Assembly: GCA_012064415.1 (NCBI GenBank)
Contig: SSNU01000037.1
Coordinates: 1-64,000 of the forward strand
DNA: 64,000 nt
From: Gyrodactylus bullatarudis
Lineage: Eukaryota; Platyhelminthes; Monogenea; Gyrodactylidea; Gyrodactylidae
Reading direction: 5' to 3'
Positions 1-51,898 of this stretch are shown here, piece after piece. The position numbers and the translations under genes are program-made. How positions within the stretch are numbered: position 1 is the stretch's first letter; each line of letters opens with the position of its first letter. Under the pieces are notes generated by a model. That model had not been told where the DNA came from. It worked only from the letters and a program-made list of their open reading frames with translations, and did not search any database.

Positions 1-128
1 ATATGGTCATTTTTCAAACTCCCATTTGGCGCCAAAATCACATTTTTTCGAACTTTGAACCGAAAATTTTTATTGATTTGAAAGTTTGAGATTGATCAAA
101 AGAGGTTTTTCAGGGTCAAGATTTTTTT
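1..128 (-). repeat. Dispersed repeat family A, fragment at window edge
   Basis: Positions 1-127 are, as far as I can read, the exact reverse complement of 11820-11946, apart from the length of one T run at the inner end. The shared block contains the palindrome TTGGCGCCAA. Related but diverged stretches lie at 7755-8560 and 42122-42494. The copy runs off the left edge and abuts a tRNA-type SINE at about 129. No coding capacity. Probably a non-autonomous DNA transposon remnant. Confidence 0.8.
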
Positions 129-325
129 AGAAGCGTTGCCTCACAACTTTGAAGACCTGGGTTCGAATCTTGGCTATTGTGTACTGACGAGTCTTAATAA
201 GGACGAAACGCGTCTACATCTGCCACCGTGAGTTGAATATTATTCGACTCTCTTATAGAATTGACACTTGCTTATCCGAATTTCTAACATCTAGGTGTGA
301 GAAGACAATCTCCATCAAGTTAGAG
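129..325 (+). mobile_element. tRNA-derived SINE carrying a hammerhead ribozyme (copy 1)
   Basis: A pol III B-box (GGTTCGAATC, 160-169) lies in a tRNA-like stretch beginning GACCTGGGTTCG, followed directly by the hammerhead at 172-224 and a unique body to about 325. Related sequences elsewhere share this order: 41990-42115 (-), 47565-47710 (+) and 54880-54975 (-). The A-box, expected about 35 nt upstream of the B-box, is missing here because sequence before about 130 belongs to repeat family A, so this copy is 5' truncated or interrupted. The right boundary is set by similarity to the 41990-42115 copy and is approximate. Combining a tRNA head with a hammerhead is known in schistosome SINE-like elements; this family I do not recognise. 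Confidence 0.7.
172..224 (+). ncRNA. Type I hammerhead ribozyme with minimal stem III
   Basis: All invariant elements are present in order. Stem I 5' strand is GGC (172-174) plus GTGTA (179-183). The core is CTGACGA (184-190; N7 is C, which is allowed). Stem II is GTCTT (191-195) pairing with AGGAC (200-204) around the loop AATA. GAA is 205-207. Stem III is AC (208-209) with GT (212-213) and a two-base loop. The cleavage-site C is 214, and the stem I 3' strand is TACAT (215-219) plus GCC (222-224). Cleavage is expected between 214 and 215. The segment ACGCGT (208-213) is self-complementary, so two RNAs could form a six-pair helix III, the dimeric mode known for short-stem-III hammerheads in Penelope elements and SINEs. 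Activity itself is inferred. Confidence 0.85.
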
Positions 326-1213
326 TTCACATGGATATAGTAATTACCAGTGACCACACTTTGCTAGTAGGTTAATTGTCTAAAAACACTGTAATTTCCA
401 TATGTCTCTTAATGTTCTTGTGATAGTGTTGTATTTTTTGAGATCGGCAAATGGTCTTAAAAGTCACCCAAATCATAGAATTTCAAATTTCATAAAATAC
501 TTTTTTTATATCCTTAGCGCACGAGAGGGTTAAATTGAGAATGTTAAAATTTGTGCAAGTAATCATTATGTAATTTGATTGAGATTGGGTAGAATATATA
601 AAATCAATGTTATCGTATTTGTATAATTTTAACATAATGTTAAAGATTAGTAAGGAAATAGAAATACAATATGAATGAATGGAAAGACATTTTTGTTTTT
701 CTGATAAATACAAACCTGTAATTCTTGAATTGGGTTATCCTGAGAGGGTAACAAATAATTATTGTAAACCAAAGCAGATTTGCTATCATCAAGTCGACAG
801 AAAATGAAGAATAGTTTTACCTATTTACTTACTAGTATACATAACAATGAAAAAATGTATTAGCCGCTTGTATAAAAATAAAATACAGCTAGACCTGCGA
901 CTTGTGAGTAGGGTTTTTGTATTAAATTAAAATTTTCTGAGCTCCTACTAACGATAGGTCATTCAATCAAAAGCTTATATAGGGAAACTAAACACGATTG
1001 GAATTAAGAGCTTTGAGACATACTACACTGAACAGGATGATCAAGAAAGTCTCAGGTTTTAATCAGATTAAGAAAATTAGTCTGATTTTCGTTTAGTCAA
1101 ACAGAAATTTATGTTAGAGTCTTCCTTACTTTTTCGTCATTATTCGGCTATAAAAAGTGAAATAATTTATTATATAATCATTTTCCCTAAAATGTTTCAA
1201 ATCTTTAAAACTA
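326..1213. other. Intergenic, 3' flank of the formin gene
   Basis: AT-rich with no supported gene. A 76-codon minus-strand open frame at 483-713 has low-complexity composition and no family resemblance. TTTATT at about 1165, just past the formin stop, reads AATAAA on the minus strand and is a candidate poly(A) signal. Confidence 0.5.
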
Positions 1214-4200
1214 TCAACACAAACGTACATCTTTTGATTTTCTGGGTGTCGAGGAAGACTGAGAACCATTGAGTCGAAAATCTTCGGAACCTCTGGAGCC
1301 ATTCATTGAACCATTTCCGACTGAACGCAATACTTCAGCACGTCTTCGCTTCTCATTTTCATTAATGGCTTTCTAACATGAAAGAAATGGACAAAATTTA
1401 GATGGTTACATTTTTACGCTGATTGTGAATATAAAATAAGATATTTTTTGATACTTGTTGGAGGATTTAAAAATTAATAATCAAGATTTGATTGCTTCTG
1501 AATTGCTCAACATAAATTTATCGACTTTGTTGTTGCAAAAAGTCTTACTTTGAAATTTTCCACAAATCTGAGAATGATTGAAAAGAATTTTTCAGGACTG
1601 GGCTTTGATTGTGATTCACCGAACCATTCAACAACTTGATTGTACATGAGAATTGTTTGATCAGCAAGGCGTAGCATTGAATCAACTTTGGGTCGAGCAA
1701 AGTCTACAAATTGAACGAGCCGTTCGGGGACTTTGGATCCACTGGCTATCAATTCGTTCTCTGATTGTTTCATGCCTGTTTTGAGAGCTGTCACGTCACC
1801 AGTTAAAATCTCCATGGGCACTGAATAAAATTGAAGGTTCAAGATCTACTAATACATATTAAAGATTTTCAGAGGTTGACTTTAAGCAATTGAAGAAAAA
1901 ATATTTTCAGTTTGGAATATTTTTTAACTTCGAACGAAAAAAATCATCAAAATTTCCCAATCTTCAAGCAGTTAGAATGATCAAGAAATCGAAATTTGAC
2001 TCCCACACGATAATTCTTACATTTGTATCACAAATTAAAGTCCCTAAATGGTCTCTTGAATCACAAAAAGTATTCGATATTAGTTTTTATGAATACTGAA
2101 CAAACAGTATTTAAAAATTTCTTTTCACATATTTTATCAACTAATTTAAAAGTTTCAAATTCGATATTTTTCTTGAAGTATGCATATTTTTCCACAAGCT
2201 CATCTCTAAGTATTTAATCATCTTGAACTCCCAAAAGATAAATTGAATTAAGTTGATAATCAATGCCAAGTATAAATTTCACCAAAGAAGCAGTAGATCA
2301 AAATAGTAAATTTGACTTTTGTGTTTGATTTTCATTCTAAAATACTTGATTTCACCTCCCTTTTGTTCGAAGTCAATGAAAGTAAAATTTTATTTTCGAA
2401 AAGATCATCAAATTCATCGAGAAATATCTTTAGTGACCAATATGATGTTTGGCAGAAAATCTGATGATTGACTAAACAACTCACCCTTGCATGCAAGGGA
2501 TAGACCATCGAGTTCCTCGTAAAAGTTCACTAATTTGGGAAACTTCCTCTCAATTGTATCAACAACATAGTGCATGAGTGTCCACCTCTTGTCAATGCTC
2601 CTGGTGTCTGTGAGAACATCGAGAGATTGTAGCTTGAAGCCATAGACAACTCCACGCCGGCAACTATTCATGTAATTGCCAATCGCGAGAATTATCTCGA
2701 GAACCTTTCTGAATTTTTCACTCTTTTTCAGGTTGACACTTGCCAAGTTGACAGCACCGATTCTCTACAAAAAGTACCTTTATAAATACTACACTCTATC
2801 ATCCAATCCTTTTAAAAGCGATTGTTATTTTAGAGAAATTTAAAGTGAAAAAATAGAAAAAACAGCCAGTGAAATACATATATAGCTAATCTGGTCTTCT
2901 GAATACTTAATAAAGATGATGAAATATATGAATTTAAAAATTTCTGCATTCTTAAATATTCAGATCGAAACCAATAGGGATACCAATGCTTTGAAATTTA
3001 AGATAAAATTGAAAAGGATCCAGATTCCAAACGTCTGTTTCACTACAGGATCAAACATTCTACGATAAAGTCGGAAAAACCCGAATTTTTACAGATTATT
3101 TTTTCTACGTCTATTTTTGACACTCTAAACACTTTTGGGATTAATTACATTCAACATGAATCCTACTTTCAGATGGCATAGAGTTTATTGCTTTAATTAT
3201 TTTTATCTGGTACTAACTAGCAAAAGTCGTTTTTTCTGAAAATTTGAAAGTACGGTTTCTGCCCAATATCTCAGCTCACGGACCAGATTTGTGATCAGAA
3301 TAAAATTTTATATTGGAAATTTTATAGCTAGAAAAAATCAATTTTGAAAAAAATTTCATCAAAAGTTAGGAATGAATTTCTCTATGATGAAAAGAATAGT
3401 CTATTATAACTGGAATAATCTGACTTGAAAGTTTTATGAGAAAATTATCACCAGGGAATATCGATATCTTGAACTGATTCATCAGTAGAGAATATATTAA
3501 ATAAAATAATAAAAATTGGCAAATTAACATGAACTATCATCCATTGGTTCGTAGAAAGAATAGATGAAGCAAAAGAGATGTAGTGTTAGGAAATTTACAA
3601 AAATCCTTGGAATTGATTAGAGGCGAAAATAGTTTTCAATTTACAGTAAGCAAATTCATAAGGCAATCGAAAATTGGATTGATTGTTGATCAATGAAATT
3701 CCAAAAAACTTCCATGATGAGACTACTTAGTTCTTAATATAGATCTTGACAGGCTATAAAGCGAAAAAAAAACATGATATGTACCTACACCATAAATGCA
3801 GACAACGGGAGAAAGAAATATGGAAATGTTATGAAAATTAGAATAAATATAGTGAACAATGTTCACTGAACATACAGGCTCTAGAGCTTTAACTGAGTCT
3901 TCAAATGAGTTCATAAACATAATGACCTCTAGTCTTGGTCCGAGACGTTCAATTTTGCAAAGATGTAGAATCAGCTTGTCTTCATCTGATAATTCGTCAA
4001 TAGGTTTTTGGTCAGTAAATTCATAGGACAAATAAAGCTTTGATTCATCACTAGTTGGCAATTGATGGAGGATACGATCAGCAACATCAGCACTCAATTC
4101 AAGTTGACTAATTTCTTCCCATAATTTTTCAATCTTGTACTTTTCAGATTCAAGAAACTTTAAGAGTACACCAAGACACCTATGCCGATTAGGGTCGAGG

Positions 4201-10200: not shown

Positions 10201-13200
10201 AAGATTTTATTGGTAGATCGCAAAAACCTATTCTTGGTCTACATCAGTAATCGTCAATAGATGTACAAGTAATGTACACACTTGGGAAAAATCACTTTGT
10301 GTCAGTCCAAGTCGACCACTTGAGAATGACAAGAGGAATCTTAAAAGGTCATTGCGTAAACAATGAAAATAGAGCAGTTAAGAGATGACGCGAATGGAAA
10401 AATGTACATTTTAAGCAGAAATGTTGTATTATAATGGGGGTTCGTGAAAACCACTTGAAAATCAAATTCTGTAGGAAATGAAATAACATGAAAAGAAAAA
10501 TCCCCAGTTTACACTTGGTATTTATAGAGGAATTTGATCATAAAGAAAATTGAAGACATTTTTATTATTTTCATAAAAATGAAATGAACATAACAATGAA
10601 GTTCTTGAAAGGAATTCCAAACATTCTTTGATAGTTCAGGTTGTCAGGCTTGTGAAAGATAAATTTATTGTGTGCGAAATTTCACTTGGCATCCTAAATA
10701 AATTTATTTTTTTCTACTTGAAACTCTTCTTTCTAAGAAATAGAAATAGATAAAAAATTCAAGAGTACTGTTGTCTAATAATAATAATGGGTCAACCATC
10801 CAAGCAGTGATACTTTTCAGATTCTGATGAATCATCATTGTGTTTTTTGAAAAAAACAAAATGAAATATTCAATGTGTGTTGCCTTAGAGAATCTTTCAG
10901 AAATATTAAAACAGTGTGTAAATATTTAGATAATGATTAAACTGAAGAAGCTAACCTAGGCTCATGTCCTGTAAGAGAATGAAAGAAAGAATGATGATAC
11001 ATCTTATACACATGCCCAAAAGTATATATATATACCTCTTACAGGTATTTGACAGGTATTGGGTCAATTTTTGATCCAAAAATTGGCTAACTGTGATAAT
11101 TATATATTTGAATTCTACAGAAATGATTACTCAATCTTACTTTTTATCTATTTGCAAAAAAACGTTTTAAATTAAAAATTAAATTTTTGAAAAAAAAACA
11201 AACTTTCTTTGAACACGTGTTTGATGAATAATAGAGCTGAGATATTTGCGTATCTCAGGAGATTAATAGATTTCCTATAGAATGCTCGGTAAACGAATTA
11301 TTTTCTGAGCCTTGTATGAATAATGATGAGATAATAAACTCATATGGGATAGGAATAATCCAGTGGAACTACTATGAGTGTTAAAAGAGAAGAGTGGAAA
11401 AGTCTGCAAGTTTGAATGCGAGTCATGAAAAGACTTGGACCTCTTCAAAGCAGTATATGGAAATTTAAAAATCGGTGAATATAATAATAACTCACCATAA
11501 AATCAATAGAATAAAGGTTTGATGGGAAATTTTCATGGGTACTGAATAGGTAGACTAGAAATTCAAAACGAGTTGTTTCATTTGATACGAGAGCCAATTC
11601 GTTGAAGGCCTTCAGAACAGCCTCATGTCCATGTTCGATTAGGCAGATGCCAGCAAGTAAATCCATCACCTGTGTCTTGGTTCTAGACAAATAAAATACA
11701 AACTTTCAGATGATTAAAACTTGATTTCAACTGCGTATTTCTGCTTATCATGATAATTATCTGATAAAATTTAGAAAAATACTCAAATTTAATAAGAGAT
11801 GAGATTCTAAGGAATTTTTAAAAAATCTTGACCCTGAAAAACCTCTTTTGATCAATCTCAAACTTTCAAATCAATAAAAATTTTCGGTTCAAAGTTCGAA
11901 AAAATGTGATTTTGGCGCCAAATGGGAGTTTGAAAAATGACCATATTTTTCATAAAAATTTTTTTTCAGAATTTTTTTCTTCAAGTGGTAAAAGTGGGCA
12001 ACATGAGTAGGATTCCAAAAAATCTTTAACAAGTTCGAATGATTGATGAAAAAATCGAGATTTCTGTAAAAATCATAGATTCCCAACTTCATATAAACCA
12101 ACTTTAGATTATTTTATTGTAAATGTCAATTTAAATCTAAGAAAAATTTTCCAACAAAAAAATAGTGAAAAGTCGATTGCTGATTAGACTACAATAGTCG
12201 AAGCTAAACATTTTTCATACTATACAAAAGAATGCTACCATCTGCAAAAGATGCAAAGTATTAAATTATTAAAAACTATTCTCGATGATATTTGGTATAT
12301 TTTTTAAAATCTTATTTTCATCAAGGTCTCAAAATTTTTGAGTTGGCGCGATTTTCCCTTACTTTTGAACTATTAAGAGGAAGCAAACAACAAATTGTAA
12401 AAATCATAAATTTCCAAATTCATCGAGAATAGCTGTATTCAAAAGCACAATGAGGTGAGGATTTTCCTAATCATTGCCTTCTGACTATTTCAACTGCCTT
12501 CGTGAAATGCTAAAGGAGCTATTCGATTCTATTGAACTCAATTAGAAACAGCAAATACTCTTGTAATACATATATAAAAGTACAAGTATGGTGTTAAACA
12601 TTAAGTACAGTTTGACGAGTATACAGCTTATATACAATGTTCCCATAAAATTTGGTAAATTTCAGAAAAAGTAGCTAGAATAAGTTTACATTTGGTAGAT
12701 GGGATAGAAATTGTACTGCATACTAAATAGTAAAAAAAGTAGGAAAAATAGAAGAACAAGAAGAAAAACCAAAACTATTGAGAGAAATTAGCTCGTTGGA
12801 AAGTACTTCTTTTTGTATTTTGATTGAAGAAAAAAAGAAAAACACCAAATGAAAATAAATAAATCAATTATGATCATCTGTTTTTTAGGTAAGAGAAGAT
12901 GAAATTTTTAAAATATGAACTTTTGCTAAACAGAACTACTTACTATAGTCATCATGGTAAAGTTTTTTTATATTACTCGTATAAAAACTCGTACCTGTTT
13001 ACTTGGTCAATTTAAGCATCTCTTATCTCTTCAGGAGAGATAATTAAAGTCCCAAAAGACTTTTTCTAAAAGAATTGTGTGACCATCTCAGTATCGAAAC
13101 GTCTGGAAGAGGCTTTGGAAAAGGCTTAGTTTCATTCCGATTAAACCGACTAATTTTTATTGAAGATTTCAGATTCCATCATGGAACAAGACAATTTTCC

Positions 13201-27339: not shown

Positions 27340-27341
27340 TA

Positions 27342-27759
27342 CACTTCTCCACCAGTTTTGGTGCTCGAGAAAGCACACACCCTGTTTTTGACTGTTGAAA
27401 CTGTTTTTTCTGATTATAATCATACTTTGAAGTATTTTGAAAAATTATCTTTTGGGCAAATTTTTTCATTTTTCCGGTTTTCGGTCTCATTTTGTAGAGA
27501 AATTTATCCTGATTCGATCTGTACCACTAAACCCTATCGAACTCGTTCGTCTTGTTTGAAAAAAATTAAAAATAAAATCAGATTTTTCAATGGAGAAATT
27601 AATTCGTCATCTTGACTTGTGTATTTTTGATAATTACACTCTTTAATTACTAATTACACTAAAGTCACACAAACTACAAACTGTATGTTAACGTACACTG
27701 AGTAATTACAGGTTTAACTCTCCACGACAAAAACAAAAATCAATAAAGATTTCTTGGCT
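27342..27759 (+). repeat. Left terminal inverted repeat of the Tigger-type element
   Basis: 418 bp, reverse complement of 28687-29104. It contains an open frame of 95 codons (27328-27615) that reappears inverted in the other arm (28831-29088). Its symmetry and lack of domains argue it is not a gene. Confidence 0.9.
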
Positions 27760-27938
27760 GAAATTCGTTCTAAAATCACTTTTCTAACACAGCTTATTTT
27801 TGCCTAAACTTTGAACTTTCATAATATTCTTATTAAATATGATAGAAACATGATTTCTTTTGCAAATAAAAGTTTACTTGATGCTATTTCGAATAAAAAA
27901 TAATAATTTTGGAAAAATAAAAGGAGTTTTTATTATTC

Positions 27939-28653
27939 TTAAAATCTTGAAAATATTCCTTTATTCCAAGAATTGATAATTACTGATGGAGGAATAAGAT
28001 TTTCCGACCTTCTTAACAAATTCAGTGCAATATTCAAATCTAGGACATTGAAATTTATTGTTTCATTTATATACTTGGCTTTAAATGAGCGAATTACACC
28101 TTGGTCACATGGTTGACACAAGGCTGTAGTATTTTGGGGGAGATATAGCAGTGTGACATTAGGAGGGCATATAATCCTATGATGGGAGCTAACGTTATCA
28201 ACTAATAAAAGAACTTCCCTATTGACAGTCTCTGCAAACCTGTTCAACCACATTTGGAAAATTGCCCGATTCATCCATGCTGTTGGTGAAGCATGATAAT
28301 ATGGATATTGCAGACCTTTAAAACATCTTGGCCTTTGTGACTTGCCAATGTAATGAGTTGGGAACATAATTCCAGCTGCATTGCAGCACACCATAGCTGT
28401 AATTCTCTCTTTAGAAGATTTATCTGTCTTACAGTTTACTGAGCTTAAAAATTAAAAATTTTACTCTATGAATTGATAATCTTCTTCTTCTCTGAAAACG
28501 GTAAAGCCATCCTGTGGAAGGGTAAATTCCTATTACCCTACCGATTCGCCTTGCTTCTCTTAATAACTGCATCCCACTGACTGAACGATGTTGTCTTCTC
28601 TTTTCTTCAAAATAATTTATAGAGCCTTGCTCCACTAGATCATATTGATGCAA
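27939..28653 (-). pseudogene. CENP-B/Tigger DDE transposase, internally deleted
   Basis: 28429-28653 encodes a CENP-B-type DNA-binding HTH piece (VSGMQLLREARRIG, STGWLYRFQRRR). In another frame, starting before 28394, comes the DDE superfamily 1 core: KERITAMVCCNAAG, IGKSQRPRCFKGL, LLLVDNVSSHH (second catalytic D), LPQNTTALCQPCDQGVIRSF (third catalytic D). The roughly 100 residues normally between HTH and core, including the first catalytic D, are missing and the frame shifts at the junction (about 28430). The protein cannot be an active transposase, so the element is non-autonomous. Confidence 0.88.
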
Positions 28654-28686
28654 TGAATGAGAGGCCTAAATTAGTGGATTAAAAAA

Positions 28687-29104
28687 AGCCAAGAAATCTT
28701 TATTGAGTTTTGTTTTTGTCGTGGAGAGTTAAACCTGTAATTACTCAGTGTACGTTAACATACAGTTTGTATTTTGTGTGACTTTAGTGTAATTAGTAAT
28801 TAAAGAGTGTAATTATCAAAAATACACAAGTCAAGATGACGAATTAATTTCTCCATTGAAAAATCTGATTTTATTTTTAATTTTTTTCAAACAAGACGAA
28901 CGAGTTCGATAGGGTTTAGTGGTACAGATCGAATCAGGATAAATTTCTCTACAAAATGAGACCGAAAACCGGAAAAATGAAAAAATTTGCCCAAAAGATA
29001 ATTTTTCAAAATACTTCAAAGTATGATTATAATCAGAAAAAACAGTTTCAACAGTCAAAAACAGGGTGTGTGCTTTCTCGAGCACCAAAACTGGTGGAGA
29101 AGTG
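28687..29104 (-). repeat. Right terminal inverted repeat of the Tigger-type element
   Basis: Mirror of 27342-27759. Visible differences include an A/C change in the CAAAAATCAATAAAG versus CAAAACTCAATAAAG stretch near the inner end. Confidence 0.9.
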
Positions 29105-29106
29105 TA

Positions 29107-33789: not shown

Positions 33790-36700
33790 TTATAGTCTTT
33801 CGAATTTCATAGCACGTTCTACTCCTGTCTTGAATTCTGAACAATCTTTTTCATCATTGAACTTGAGACAAAATGTAGAAATCTTGCTTTCCTCGTCACT
33901 GAAATCATTGCCAATCCAGCAAATCTTTGTTTTCGAATCATTCATTTGATTTATCTTCATGGGAGCACTCGACGAGAGAATCTGGTTTAGGCATACTTTG
34001 TGCACCTGATCACGACGCATTAGGATTCTAGCGTACTTGATCTTACCAATCTTTGAGTCGTCAAAGAAATTAACTTCCTCCTTTTGATCTAGAGAGGGAG
34101 AGAGAGAATGAAAAAATAAGTATATTTTTATGCATGTGCTCGAGATGATATTTTCTTACCAAGTCCTTCGATGTTCTTTTTCACAGGCTCAACAAGAATT
34201 TTTAGCATGCCTACTCCACGTTCTTTCCATGAGTTGTCAGCAAAAATGTATAACTTTACATGTCTTCTGTAGAGAGCATAGCTATTCTCTTCGCCTGTCA
34301 TGACCTCGACTAGAGGGGCATCTTTGACAAGAGGCTCGTAGTGAGGGTCGTAATCATCATCTTCTTCGCAGATTGATACTTCTTCGTCATTTTGGGATGT
34401 CTAAAGAATTCAAGGTTAATAAAATATAACTTGAATATAAAATAATACGGGGTCTTGAGAACATACTTTGGTATTTGAGGAGAATAGTTGAGCTGAAGAG
34501 TTGAAGGCTGATTGATCAGATGAAGATTTGTTCATCCATGCTGGAACAGATCCATCGTTAGACTTCAAATTTGAGAAGGAAAATTCTTTTGCTTTAGAGA
34601 AGAGATTGTTGTCCGAAACTTTTCCGCTGGATGTATCCAAGGGCTTTGGTTCCTCTTCCTTCTTGAGACCAAAACTGAATTTGAAACCCTCATTTGGCTT
34701 GAGATTTGAGAGGGAACTACCAAAAATTTGGTTAACTTCCGAAGACAATTTGATAGGGGCTAGTCCTCCACCGGACTTGAAGTTGAGGAGGCCAGTTGAT
34801 TGTGAAGCGTCTTGACTTTGGTTATGGACTGAGGTTTCAGACGGTTTTTGGTACTGTTCATCAAAAGTTCCATTGCTAGAATAACTGGCAGAGAGATCTC
34901 CTGATTTCCTACGATAATCTTGAATGACATCACCACTAAGAGAGGTGATTAACTGCAAAATAGAAAATTAGCAGAGGAAATTGAACAAAGCGGTTTAAAA
35001 AATTATCTGAAATACTCACACTAGTTTGATTAACGCTAATATCTTTCATCTCGTTGTTTGAGTATTTGCAACGGTCAGTAGAGGTGTTAGATTTGTTGGA
35101 GATTTTGGAAACTTCAGCATTTTCGGCAAAGGAAACATTGCGGGATTGAGATGAGTAATCAAAACTCTCGCAACGCTTGACAGCTTTTTTGAAAGCCTCA
35201 CAGTCGGCCTCAGTCTGAAATAAATTCAAGTTGAACCAAATACATTGTACGAATAGAAAGCTAATAACTAACAGAAAATCGAATGCAAAACATGTGGATG
35301 GCAGCTTCATCCTCGCTGAAATCGTTTCCGACCCAGCAACACCGTTCCTTGTTGTTATTGAAGGGAGTGAATTTGACTGGATGCTTTGGCGTGATGACCT
35401 GATGGCCCTACGAGCAAACAAGGCAAGGTTGTTCTCTTCACCAGTCTTGACCTCAACTAGCTGGGCATCTTTAACGAGTGGTTCATAGTGAGGATCGTAT
35501 CCTTCGTCATCGACCTCACCATCAGATTCCTCGTCTTTATCATCAGGCTTCTTAGCGGGAGAATTTGATTTTGCACCAAATAATGGCTTTATTTCACCTC
35601 CAAATATGTTTTTGCCGTCGGCTGGTTTAGCCAAGAAAGATGGAACTTGAGTATTACTGCCAGCAATCTGATTTGAGAGTGATTTGAAATCTATAGAATG
35701 ATTAACTATCATTTTTGCAAGAATATAATTAAATGGTATTACTTACCTAAAAGCGGAGACGACTTTACTTCCGGTGACTGATTGATGCTAGGCGATTTGA
35801 GGGAGAACTCAAAAACTGTTTTTGGAGTTGGTTTAGGGTTTGATGGAGGTTTCTTAATAGCATGTTCTAGGAGGACATTTTCACGAGTGAAATCAGCGCA
35901 TTTCTCCGATTCATGCGTAGCTGGCATTGATTTAGGATTCGTGTAAAGACATTCAGGAAGTTTCAACTTGTTAATAGTTTCAATATAACTAGATGAACGA
36001 TCCAAGAGATTTCTTATTTCTGTTCTTGCATTTGAGATGGAGGAATCCAAGGATTTATTCAGAGAAGTATTAGCAGATGAATTGGTTAATAGTAAGGATT
36101 CGGATTTTTTAACAGCTTTTCTAAAGGCTTCACAGTCAGCTTCATTCTGATTTATTTAAAAAGATTATCAAACAAAGAATAAAGAGAAGAGTTAAGACTT
36201 ACAAAAAATCGAATGCAAAACATGTGGATGGCAGCTTCATCCTCGCTGAAATCGTTTCCGACCCAGCAACACCGTTCCTTGTTGTTATTGAAGGGAGTGA
36301 ATTTGACTGGATGCTTTGGCGTGATGACCTGATTCAGGCAGATCTTGTGTACTTTCTCCCACCGCATGATCATTCTCGAGTGCTTGAGACTGCCGAGTTC
36401 TGAGTACCTGCTCTCGGGCCATTCTGTATGCCCATCTGTTGGGTTCTCGGGGAGAGTTTCAGGCTCAACGAGCACCTTGATGATACCAGTTCCTCTCTCC
36501 TTCCACTGCTTATCTGACATGCGATAGAGCTTGGCCCTACGAGCAAACAAGGCAAGGTTGTTCTCTTCACCAGTCTTGACCTCAACTAGCTGGGCATCTT
36601 TAACGAGTGGTTCATAGTGAGGATCGTATCCTTCGTCATCGACCTCACCATCAGATTCCTCGTCTTTATCATCAGGCTTCTTAGCGGGAGAATTTGATTT

Positions 36701-39700
36701 TGCACCAAATAATGGCTTTATTTCACCTCCAAATATGTTTTTGCCGTCGGCTGGTTTAGCCAAGAAAGATGGAACTTGAGTATTACTGCCAGCAATCTGA
36801 TTTGAGAGTGATTTGAAATCTATAGAATGATTAACTATCATTTTTGCAAGAATATAATTAAATGGTATTACTTACCTAAAAGCGGAGACGACTTTACTTC
36901 CGGTGACTGATTGATGCTAGGCGATTTGAGGGAGAACTCAAAAACTGTTTTTGGAGTTGGTTTAGGGTTTGATGGAGGTTTCTTAATAGCATGTTCTAGG
37001 AGGACATTTTCACGAGTGAAATCAGCGCATTTCTCCGATTCATGCGTAGCTGGCATTGATTTAGGATTCGTGTAAAGACATTCAGGAAGTTTCAACTTGT
37101 TAATAGTTTCAATATAACTAGATGAACGATCCAAGAGATTTCTTATTTCTGTTCTTGCATTTGAGATGGAGGAATCCAAGGATTTATTCAGAGAAGTATT
37201 AGCAGATGAATTGGTTAATAGTAAGGATTCGGATTTTTTAACAGCTTTTCTAAAGGCTTCACAGTCAGCTTCATTCTGATTTATTTAAAAAGATTATCAA
37301 ACAAAGAATAAAGAGAAGAGTTAAGACTTACAAAAAATCGAATGCAAAACATGTGGATGGCAGCTTCATCCTCGCTGAAATCGTTTCCGACCCAGCAACA
37401 CCGTTCCTTGTTGTTATTGAAGGGAGTGAATTTGACTGGATGCTTTGGCGTGATGACCTGATTCAGGCAGATCTTGTGTACTTTCTCCCACCGCATGATC
37501 ATTCTCGAGTGCTTGAGACTGCCGAGTTCTGAGTACCTGCTCTCGGGCCATTCTGTATGCCCATCTGTTGGGTTCTCGGGGAGAGTTTCAGGCTCAACGA
37601 GCACCTTGATGATACCAGTTCCTCTCTCCTTCCACTGCTTATCTGACATGCGATAGAGCTTGGCCCTACGAGCAAACAAGGCAAGGTTGTTCTCTTCACC
37701 AGTCTTGACCTCAACTAGCTGGGCATCTTTAACGAGTGGTTCATAGTGAGGATCGTATCCTTCGTCATCGACCTCACCATCAGATTCTTCTTGCACATCA
37801 TTGGTAACTGCCTTAACAGGTTGTTTCGGTTCATTGTTTGACTTGTTGAACTCAAAATTTAAATTTCCAAAACTGGGCTTATTTTCTATCGTTGTGGCTG
37901 TTGTTGGCTTGAATTGATTCTTATTGGGAGTCGATACTGAAATGAAAATCAAAAATAAAAATTCATAAAGCTTCTCTATTTACAAAGTTTATCTCACCAA
38001 TTTGATTTTCTCCTGGGTAGATTACTGGTTGCTGTGGTATTTTGACAGGACTCTGAGCTGGGATGAATGCTTGGTTTCTAGACTGATTCAGCATGATTGG
38101 CTGTTCCAAGGTCTTTTTATTCATCTCCATCAAGCTCCTATCTATGACTTTAGTGTAATCACTTTTTATTTGAGAAAAGCCTAGATGAATTTGATTCATT
38201 TGTTGCTGGAATTGTTGTTGTTGAACCTGGAAAGAATTGTCAAAAGTAAAAATAAATTAGCTCTAGTCTCTTAAAAAGAATCTCACCTGCATCGAAGTGG
38301 TCAAGACAGCTAGCCATTTGGTCATCTCTTGGCTGACTAGGCCGATTATTTGTTCACTAGTCATAGTATTGACTGGAGGTTTATCTTCAGATGCCTTTGG
38401 TTTCAATGAAATGGTATCCATTTTTCGACTGATTTCTTCAATTTTCTCTTTCAACACGATGATTTCTTGGTTTAGTTTAGAGTTTCTCTCCTCAAAAGAA
38501 CTCATGGTTTTGCTAAAGTCTGCGGAGAAAGCATCGTATGCACTCTGAAGATTTGAGTTAAGTTGTCTACTGACACCCAACTCATAACTTGTGTCCTGAA
38601 GCCTAGTCACGACATCAGTGAAGAGAGAGATATTTTCTTTCCCAGCATCTGAAATCTAAAAAGAAGGTCGAATGAAATTTTCATAAAATGAAGTGGGAAT
38701 CGTTTAATTTACCTTTTGTGGGGTTTTTAGACTGCTGTTGAGAATTTTTTCGCCAAGCGGCATGCTCTGGTTGGTAAAGGTCTTGATAAGATTCATTAAT
38801 TCTCCAATAGCATCGGTTTCATCAGTCATACCCCTGAGACCTTGATGCCAATTCGTGCAAATATCCTGTGGGAGTAGACTCCACTGTGGACCACTTAGTG
38901 AGAAGGAGCTGAGTATTGAAGAGTTCTTTTGAGATGAGATTGGACTATTCACCAGGTTGGTGGAGCCAATTTTACTGTCTTTGGAACTCAGAAAAGCATT
39001 TGTATATTCAAGAGTTTTTTCGAAATACGATGAAAAGATGGAGACGGGTATATCTCTGAATTTTGACTGGTTTGTTTTCAAAGCTTGAGAGATCCTCAAG
39101 GCAACCAGTGGATGATAGAACTTGGATCCATTAAAGTTTTCGTTCTTGAGACGAATCTCTTTATTTCCGACAGAGAGAATGTCTTTTTGAATTTTTTCAG
39201 TCATGTGATTACCACTGTTGCTCTTTAGCGAAGCCATAGCTGCACACCAGTAGTGACGCTGAGGGGCAGTGGGTAATATTCGTTGATTATACAAACACAG
39301 GGGGCGTTTACTGCTTTCTACCTGAATTTTCTTGTTGGAGTTCTTCTTCAAAGAGACATAAATGCAGACCGAGGAAAGAAATACGACCAAGTCAAGGAAG
39401 TTTACTTCATAGGAAGTATTCTCCTGAAGAGTTATCGATTTGTTTTCAGACTTGAAGATGTGAATAATAACTAAAATAATTTCATAAATTATTAAGAGAT
39501 AAAGTTGGCAAAGAAGTCAACTTACTGTTTAGAATTTCGACAAATTTGGCATCAGAAAAGTATTCATCAGCTATTGAGCCGGAGGATTTGCCCTCGAATT
39601 GCATTAGATACCAAATACACAAGTTTAGATCACTCTTGAGAGTTTCATAATTTTGGCTTGGACTGGCATTAAGTGTCTTGATACTACATGTGTAAATGCT

Positions 39701-50343: not shown

Positions 50344-50938
50344 ACTTTTGGTTATGTGAATGATTCGTACCATATGAGCATGAATTTTGAAGAATAAGTT
50401 TGTCAATGACAAGTTGTCATACGACTGAGGAAGACGCTAAACGTTTTGATTACCAATGGCTTAGAACTCTAATGTCGAGTTTTAATCAATTCTGTCATAA
50501 AACATTTTTATCATTGAAAGATGAATGGCGATCTCATTTTTTATCTAGATAGACACATAATCATCAGTTTTTACATGCCAATAAAAGTAGAATAACGTTA
50601 GTTCAAAGACAGTTGTTCTCTCATATCTAGGCAGCATACAATTTAGTGTAAGTTAAAATATTCATAATTAATAATTATTAAAATTTTTCAAAATTAGAGA
50701 TTCATCAATGAAATGGGCGTAGATTATTTTCCTACAACATCCTGAAATTTTCACAAAATTGAGTTGAAGTTGTGATGTTTCCAAAAAATACGTAAATTTT
50801 CAAATTTTACTTCAAATAGCTCGAAAAGTAAAAGATCTAAGGAAAACTTTTGTTCCACTCTATTTTTGTATGTTCTTCTATATAGAAAGACTAAGCGTTG
50901 CAAGTCGGTGCTTGAGATTCAACCGAATAACACAAAAG
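50344..50938 (+). repeat. Left arm of 595-bp palindrome flanking the gap
   Basis: Reverse complement of 51304-51898 with no visible mismatch where checked (paired positions sum to 102242). Pairing ends sharply at 50343/51899 and at the gap edges. Confidence 0.92.
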
Positions 50939-51303
50939 NNNNNNNNNNNNNNNNNNNNNNNNNNNNNNNNNNNNNNNNNNNNNNNNNNNNNNNNNNNNNN
51001 NNNNNNNNNNNNNNNNNNNNNNNNNNNNNNNNNNNNNNNNNNNNNNNNNNNNNNNNNNNNNNNNNNNNNNNNNNNNNNNNNNNNNNNNNNNNNNNNNNNN
51101 NNNNNNNNNNNNNNNNNNNNNNNNNNNNNNNNNNNNNNNNNNNNNNNNNNNNNNNNNNNNNNNNNNNNNNNNNNNNNNNNNNNNNNNNNNNNNNNNNNNN
51201 NNNNNNNNNNNNNNNNNNNNNNNNNNNNNNNNNNNNNNNNNNNNNNNNNNNNNNNNNNNNNNNNNNNNNNNNNNNNNNNNNNNNNNNNNNNNNNNNNNNN
51301 NNN
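50939..51303. other. Assembly gap, 365 N
   Basis: Run of unknown bases. Open frames reported across it on both strands are artefacts of N translation. The gap sits exactly at the centre of the palindrome. Confidence 0.99.
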
Positions 51304-51898
51304 CTTTTGTGTTATTCGGTTGAATCTCAAGCACCGACTTGCAACGCTTAGTCTTTCTATATAGAAGAACATACAAAAATAGAGTGGAACAAAAGTTTTC
51401 CTTAGATCTTTTACTTTTCGAGCTATTTGAAGTAAAATTTGAAAATTTACGTATTTTTTGGAAACATCACAACTTCAACTCAATTTTGTGAAAATTTCAG
51501 GATGTTGTAGGAAAATAATCTACGCCCATTTCATTGATGAATCTCTAATTTTGAAAAATTTTAATAATTATTAATTATGAATATTTTAACTTACACTAAA
51601 TTGTATGCTGCCTAGATATGAGAGAACAACTGTCTTTGAACTAACGTTATTCTACTTTTATTGGCATGTAAAAACTGATGATTATGTGTCTATCTAGATA
51701 AAAAATGAGATCGCCATTCATCTTTCAATGATAAAAATGTTTTATGACAGAATTGATTAAAACTCGACATTAGAGTTCTAAGCCATTGGTAATCAAAACG
51801 TTTAGCGTCTTCCTCAGTCGTATGACAACTTGTCATTGACAAACTTATTCTTCAAAATTCATGCTCATATGGTACGAATCATTCACATAACCAAAAGT
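51304..51898 (-). repeat. Right arm of 595-bp palindrome flanking the gap
   Basis: Mirror of 50344-50938. It includes the dispersed block TTTTCCTTAGATCTTTTAC ... GAAAATAATCTACGCC, also found at 22103-22234. Confidence 0.92.

Follow-up and report, generated by a model that had tools for sequence, protein, structure and literature searches.

The window examined here, a 64,000-nucleotide stretch of the Gyrodactylus bullatarudis genome (contig SSNU01000037.1, positions 1 to 64,000 of the forward strand), contains a damaged and 5'-truncated copy of a short repeat, probably a non-autonomous hammerhead SINE or retrozyme (family f1) that was moved by Penelope-like elements (PLEs). Two sister families, f2 and f3, share its anatomy, and its copies sit in insertion structures that resemble those of PLEs. 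The same genome carries a long PLE frame with reverse transcriptase (RT) and GIY-YIG domains, as well as minimal hammerheads belonging to PLEs. The window copy and its parts are as follows; u denotes positions in the f1 unit and v positions in the f2 unit.

1..126, no strand assigned: flank, formed by a different dispersed repeat whose inverted counterpart at 11821–11946 is 100% identical
127..404, + strand: 5'-truncated copy (u74–351) of the ~369-nt hammerhead SINE family f1, 98% identical to the f1 unit
160..170, + strand: B-box-like GGTTCGAATCT of the tRNA-like head, from the letters and family comparison
172..224, + strand: type I hammerhead ribozyme motif, from the letters, from RF00163 at 179–219 (below gathering) and from covariation with two other families
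172–174/222–224, + strand: outer stem GGC/GCC
175–178/220–221, + strand: internal loop, TATT opposite CT
179–183/215–219, + strand: stem I, five pairs including one G·U
184..190, + strand: core CUGACGA (C3 to A9), CTGACGA in DNA
191–195/200–204, + strand: stem II, five pairs including one G·U
196–199, + strand: stem II loop AATA
205..208, + strand: core GAAA (G12 to A15.1)
208..213, + strand: self-complementary stem III segment ACGCGT
213–214, + strand: core TC
214..215, + strand: site of predicted cleavage, directly following the GUC triplet (GTC 212–214), from its position in the motif

Direct reading of the letters bears out the hammerhead that an earlier note on this stretch had placed at 172–224. 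All 12 of the 12 invariant core letters and an NUH cleavage triplet are present, the stem III segment is self-complementary as claimed, and the motif lies, as the note had also proposed, inside a genomic retroelement-like repeat. Its description of the ribozyme as apparently intact holds for the core but not for the whole. The Rfam scan of the window at the gathering level gave no match, and the covariance search suggested as a check, run with permissive filters, aligned RF00163 to 179–219 at 20.6 bits (E=0.14), under the gathering cut-off of 34. Compared with the f1 majority, the window copy has T for G at 178, in the stem I loop, and T for C at 194, which turns a C–G pair of stem II into U·G. 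No target duplication was seen by eye around this copy. The truncated window copy is probably inactive.

The low score, the missing 5' part and the two changes could also suit a chance or decayed resemblance rather than a functional hammerhead, an explanation that we consider very improbable in view of the genome-wide counts. Across the 77.3-Mb genome (471 contigs), the core pattern with up to three mismatches gave 560 matches (268 forward, 292 reverse) and the reversed pattern gave none; hence the window motif is not a chance resemblance. RF00163 yielded 73 scored matches (of 11,180 candidates), of which 29 exceed the cut-off and the best reaches 45.2 bits, while 11 of 14 prokaryotic control genomes gave matches and none over the cut-off. 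All 29 loci over the cut-off (L031–L059) belong to the related family f2 and none to the window's own family f1.

Compensatory changes in stem I speak against chance as well. Three pairs change between the families, GGC..GCC becoming GGT..ACC in the outer stem (C–G to T–A) and TGTA/TACA becoming CATA/TATG and TATA/TATA in the inner one (G–C to A–T, T–A to C–G). Among 73 distinct hammerheads, 85% of the paired cells are canonical and 62 are double-changed, and neither value was attained in 500 shuffles. Two further measures are not unusual: 92 of the 500 shuffles reach the observed 6 of 12 pairs with a double change, and 284 reach the observed number of extra pair types. Pairs were counted by script; the MAFFT alignment of the ribozymes misplaces the f2 insertion. 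The covariation gives the helices real but not deep support, since the changes reflect few family-level events.

Within f1, by contrast, the core is not specially conserved, which favours decay. Among f1 loci selected with the entire repeat, the unbiased set (L001–L030 without L016, 52 arms), 19 of 490 core cells are changed, as against 331 of 10,918 other cells (P=0.28); all 12 core letters are kept in 29 of 38 arms of this set. An apparent special conservation of the core in all 102 arms, where 1 of 256 windows was lower (permutation P=0.04), vanished in the unbiased set and was rejected, because many of the loci behind the 102 arms had been picked by the hammerhead pattern. Stem III reads ACGCGT in 46 of 73 hammerheads and ACGCGCGT in 23 of 73, the loci having been partly picked by patterns that contain those letters. 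Where the f1 loci were not picked by the ribozyme, 39 of 42 arms have ACGCGT unbroken, and it is not specially conserved in f1, as 85 of 303 six-base windows are equally low.

In the predicted minimum-energy monomer folds of the window copy, f1 and f2, stem II is retained together with a large part of stem I and core letters pair elsewhere, and the fold of f3 has no stem II; a clean hammerhead was absent from all four. The f2 dimer is predicted to form an eight-pair helix III; the dimer folds of f1 and of the window copy do not contain such a helix by itself. A dimeric hammerhead formed through ACGCGT is plausible, since this segment leaves no space for a proper hairpin loop. Dimeric action has been published for newt-type hammerheads (PMC7229834). 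As described there, HHR_Amex1 of newt and axolotl resembles f1 in that its stem III is very weak and its loop palindromic, and it works better as a dimer, as f1 may do; but it sits in satellite-like tandem repeats of vertebrates and its activity was demonstrated, whereas that of f1 is predicted (PMC7229834).

Several other features were noted in the window. Its open reading frames include animal-type genes (formin FH2, a TPR protein, a RanBP1 domain and G-alpha). The mitochondrial COX1 of the same genome is 85% identical to that of Gyrodactylus albolacustris and 81% to that of Macrogyrodactylus karibae, the two best among the 120 matches listed, and so points to a gyrodactylid monogenean, probably a Gyrodactylus. 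At 27340–29106, perfect inverted repeats of 420 nt surround a DDE_1 ORF (4.3e-26; 27939–28451, minus strand), which we take to be a recent Tc/pogo-type DNA transposon. The region of the RanBP1-domain gene (35252–37960) contains exact duplications (35403–35702 equals 36532–36831, spacing 1129), representing either a recent tandem exon duplication or an assembly repeat. Perfect inverted arms of 777 nt at 50344–51898 meet around a run of N (about 50931–51323) and could stem from a faulty join in the assembly or be a genuine palindrome.

The f1 copy in the window has at least 73 matches in the genome (40 of 930 candidates scored). The full f1 unit of 369 nt is visible at head-to-tail junctions and is organised as follows.

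u1–61: leader
u63–73: A-box-like TGGCCTAGTGG, by sequence match; missing from the window copy, which begins at u74
between the A box and the hammerhead: B-box-like GGTTCGAATCC, by sequence match
u119–171: hammerhead, beginning immediately behind the tRNA-like T arm, with cleavage predicted after u161
downstream: 3' body, then ends near u331 or u366

The f2 unit has 364 nt, its leader being taken from one locus, and it has GTA in place of GTC. Family f3 comprises nine loci with counterpart A and B boxes, and both sister families keep the f1 order of A and B boxes, then hammerhead, then tail. The boxes were assigned by the A and B box consensus. Neither the window nor 20 related loci gave a tRNA call with ARAGORN (bacterial code), so the term tRNA-like refers here to the two boxes, presumably a Pol III promoter. 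Such 5' boxes, matched by sequence in f1, f2 and f3, are those of tRNA-derived SINEs. The f1 repeat is non-coding and has no RT or GIY-YIG ORF inside, which sets it apart from PLEs themselves. With 369 and 364 nt and a type I hammerhead, f1 and f2 fall within the 170–400 nt of the non-coding animal non-LTR retrozymes.

The earlier note was apt in connecting the motif with Penelope elements, retrozymes and SINEs, and comparable systems include flatworm SINEs. The schistosome SINE Sm-alpha carries a hammerhead and is related to repeats derived from tRNA-Gln (PMC2770079); its hammerhead is of type I (PMC8490949). As far as the descriptions reach, Sm-alpha and Sj-alpha are, like f1, high-copy flatworm tRNA-derived SINEs with a type I hammerhead; they derive from tRNA-Gln, whereas the tRNA descent of f1 is suggested by its A and B boxes. 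The animal non-LTR retrozymes of Cervera and de la Pena (2020) share with f1 and f2 the small non-coding unit, the type I hammerhead and the unit junctions, and are reported at 170–400 nt with PLEs proposed as movers (PMC7229834). That paper names PLEs as a strong candidate on account of shared hammerheads, a tandem habit and co-existence (PMC7229834), and a curation guide likewise states that retrozymes may rely on PLEs (PMC8969392). Two differences stand out. In the loci examined f1 occurs as monomers, partial dimers and inverted pairs, not as arrays, and f1 and f2 have A and B boxes, whereas retrozymes are described in one review as seemingly without promoters (PMC7761336).

The copies look inserted in the manner of PLEs. 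Among 115 f1 arms in 66 loci (L061, L063 and L065 excluded as duplicates, duplicates of L016 removed by place, aligned pieces spanning fewer than 26 positions dropped), 36 of the 3' ends lie in u324–341, 43 in u360–369, 13 between these and 23 elsewhere, some ends, both 5' and 3', being those of aligned pieces and not proven element ends. The 59 f2 pieces from 32 loci have 19 of their 3' ends in v330–353 and 17 in v372–383. The 3' ends thus gather at two alternative positions, separated by about 35 nt. Neighbouring f1 arms within 80 bp of each other (n=41) are head-to-head in 36 cases, direct in five and tail-to-tail in none; for f2 (n=23) the corresponding numbers are 17, six and none.

The head-to-head pairs tend to combine the two 3' ends. 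With f1 ends classed as long (u342–369) or short (u320–341), borders that were drawn after the distribution was known, one long and one short arm occur together in 17 of 21 classed f1 pairs (P=0.003). The same combination is found in 6 of 8 classed f2 pairs, giving 23 of 29 for both families (P=0.001); 15 of 36 f1 and 9 of 17 f2 head-to-head pairs are unclassed, having at least one end outside both classes. A single target duplication of 8–14 bp encloses the head-to-head group in 18 of 35 f1 and 6 of 16 f2 cases (24 of 51 in total). Duplications of 8 bp or more arise in 1.1% of cases with shuffled flanks, and they are rare at single or tandem copies (5 of 34 in f1, 1 of 20 in f2). At least those head-to-head pairs that are enclosed by a duplication thus represent one insertion event. 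Divergence between the arms of a pair is 2.6% (105/4031) in f1 and 4.6% (50/1085) in f2, compared with 5.05% and 6.5% between loci.

Head-to-head arms, a tail on one arm and a short target duplication are together the features of a PLE-type insertion. For Poseidon of Anolis, priming on both strands has been described, together with initiation within the RNA at a pair of adjacent sites, which define an optional tail (PMC11167929). In Adineta Pen2a the pLTR is inverted, one side bears a 31-bp tail and the duplication measures 9 bp; head-to-head is given there as the inverted arrangement observed most often (PMC3846280). As these elements are described, Poseidon_Ac and Pen2a share with the repeat the head-to-head arms, the optional tail on one arm, the partial tandems and the short duplications, and Poseidon also has a hammerhead. 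Mobilisation by a LINE, with the hammerhead as a passenger and the arms produced by twin priming or by two separate insertions, is unlikely. The tRNA-like boxes and the target duplications would be typical of a SINE moved in this way, but the enclosure of whole pairs by one duplication argues against it, as does the existence of two start sites at the 3' end, of which each arm mostly shows a different one, a PLE trait. Twin priming is further disfavoured since, as generally described, it inverts the 5' part only, while both arms of the present pairs can hold the element's 3' end.

The 5' ends bear on the role of the ribozyme. In f1, 22 of 115 lie at u54–69, close to where the A box begins (u63), a position compatible with a Pol III start; this peak is not repeated in f2, where 31 of 59 lie at v90–129, inside the tRNA-like head. 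A template of cut RNA would be expected to give arms that end at u162, and only 1 of 115 f1 ends falls in u158–166, the region of the cleavage site; in f2 none of 59 lies within 4 nt of the cut. The arms of several head-to-head pairs also share core changes (A9C in L014, G12A in L022, G8T and A9C in L011) that we expect to stop cleavage; RNAs carrying these changes may have been inserted, or else the change passed from one arm to the other by gene conversion. Both observations speak against cleavage as a required step, and cleavage is not visible as a step that produces the inserted template; the part in retrotransposition that the earlier note had assigned to cleavage and circularisation therefore finds no backing here. 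The Poseidon hammerhead is reported to be dispensable for insertion in vitro (PMC11167929).

These ends also have to be weighed for an animal-type retrozyme, whose hammerhead, as Cervera and de la Pena proposed, would cut multimers into monomers that are ligated to circles and copied by RT. This route is possible, if less than probable. Unit size and type I motif fit it (PMC7229834), and ligated circles are a possible template: unit-to-unit junctions, found in 17 of 115 f1 arms, imply templates that are longer than one unit or circular, and copying from a circle would not be expected to produce a 5' end at the cut. The junction-bearing arms are all shorter than two units (partial tandems), and long tandem arrays, which a retrozyme would lead one to expect, were absent from the examined loci, which are short. 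The pairs with shared core mutations count against it as well, and the f1 peak at u54–69 suggests a linear template that starts there, although f2 does not repeat it.

PLEs are present in the same genome. GIY-YIG gave 35 matches, 26 of them over the cut-off, and not all are PLEs. One locus, L077, has an open frame of 732 residues (stop to stop) with RVT_1 (1.7e-14) and GIY-YIG, the latter at 21.8 bits, slightly below its cut-off of 22.6. At its 5' end this frame meets a run of N and its own 3' part in inverted form (2982–3245), and the L077 PLE is thus itself a head-to-head copy and probably incomplete. Minimal hammerheads stand behind the PLE frames in seven of the nine 3' regions examined; the match in L122 is not a hammerhead, and L123 gave none by pattern. 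Palindromic stem III centres occur in PLE hammerheads too, for example AAGGCCTT in L077. At L011 (692–985), a PLE copy combines an inverted arm that holds only the tail with a forward arm of the short-end type, and it has the 9-bp duplication GTAAGTATT.

A PLE partner recognisable by a shared tail was sought among the compared PLEs and not found. The SINE units have no similarity at E<0.05 to the nine PLE 3' regions, except for an f2 copy that abuts one PLE, and in tail and body the repeat thus differs from the genome's compared PLEs, as it does in coding for nothing. Because no compared PLE has the SINE tail sequence, the PLE partner is inferred from structure and not from homology. At L048 (1227–1377), the 3' end of a PLE (1368) lies about 9 bp from the break (v293) of an f2 hammerhead SINE on the opposite strand; perhaps the PLE was inserted into the SINE copy. 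Further minimal hammerhead-like motifs at L029 (230+ and 1363+), L015 (2161+) and L124 (925+), with palindromic stem III centres such as AAAAGCTTTT in L029 and L124, suggest additional PLE families.

We propose, as the most likely course, that f1 would be transcribed by Pol III and that the transcript, at times longer than one unit, would be captured by the RT/GIY-YIG protein of a PLE. A staggered cut of the target would allow both strands to be primed, each start being internal to the RNA, at two start sites about 35 nt apart of which usually one is used per strand. The two cDNAs would then be joined head to head, usually after an early stop of one or both, leaving a single insertion of two inverted arms enclosed by one short duplication of the target. 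Cleavage by the ribozyme may occur, probably most readily in a dimer held together by the palindromic stem III. Support for a PLE as the enzyme source comes from the resemblance of the scars to PLE traits (both-strand priming, two internal starts, inverted arms, 9-bp duplication); it is weakened by the L077 frame, which is probably not that of a complete PLE, and by the lack of the f1 5'-end peak in f2. A stem between the two start sites (ACACTG/CAGTGT in f1, TTCTA/TAGAA in f2), seen by eye only, is absent from the predicted minimum-energy folds and was set aside.

The PLE protein is predicted to act as a dimer. We speculate, with considerable doubt, that the stem III palindrome could pair two RNAs and so give such a protein two templates, from which head-to-head insertions would result. 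Both target strands would be primed from two templates presented at once, and the ribozyme fold would be retained partly as an RNA-pairing device, not for cutting, in the manner of a retroviral dimer-linkage loop. The lack of special conservation of the palindrome in f1 argues against the idea, as does at least one paired arm (L014) in which it is broken.

A literature search for hammerhead ribozymes together with Gyrodactylus found no paper, and among the matches listed no title concerned an f1-type element or PLE-type scars in hammerhead SINEs; most subscription papers lay outside the reach of the search. The element type as such, hammerhead SINEs and retrozymes, is already known, and the window copy is an ordinary, damaged member of it. 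The enzyme that moves animal hammerhead elements is an open question in the literature accessible to us, and the PLE-type scars of two SINE families make the question of PLE mobilisation countable. The scars also bear on the mechanism of PLEs, as the two internal start sites tend toward one per strand. Since it harbours PLEs as well as three or more families of hammerhead SINEs, the 77-Mb genome of this flatworm offers a tractable system for both questions.
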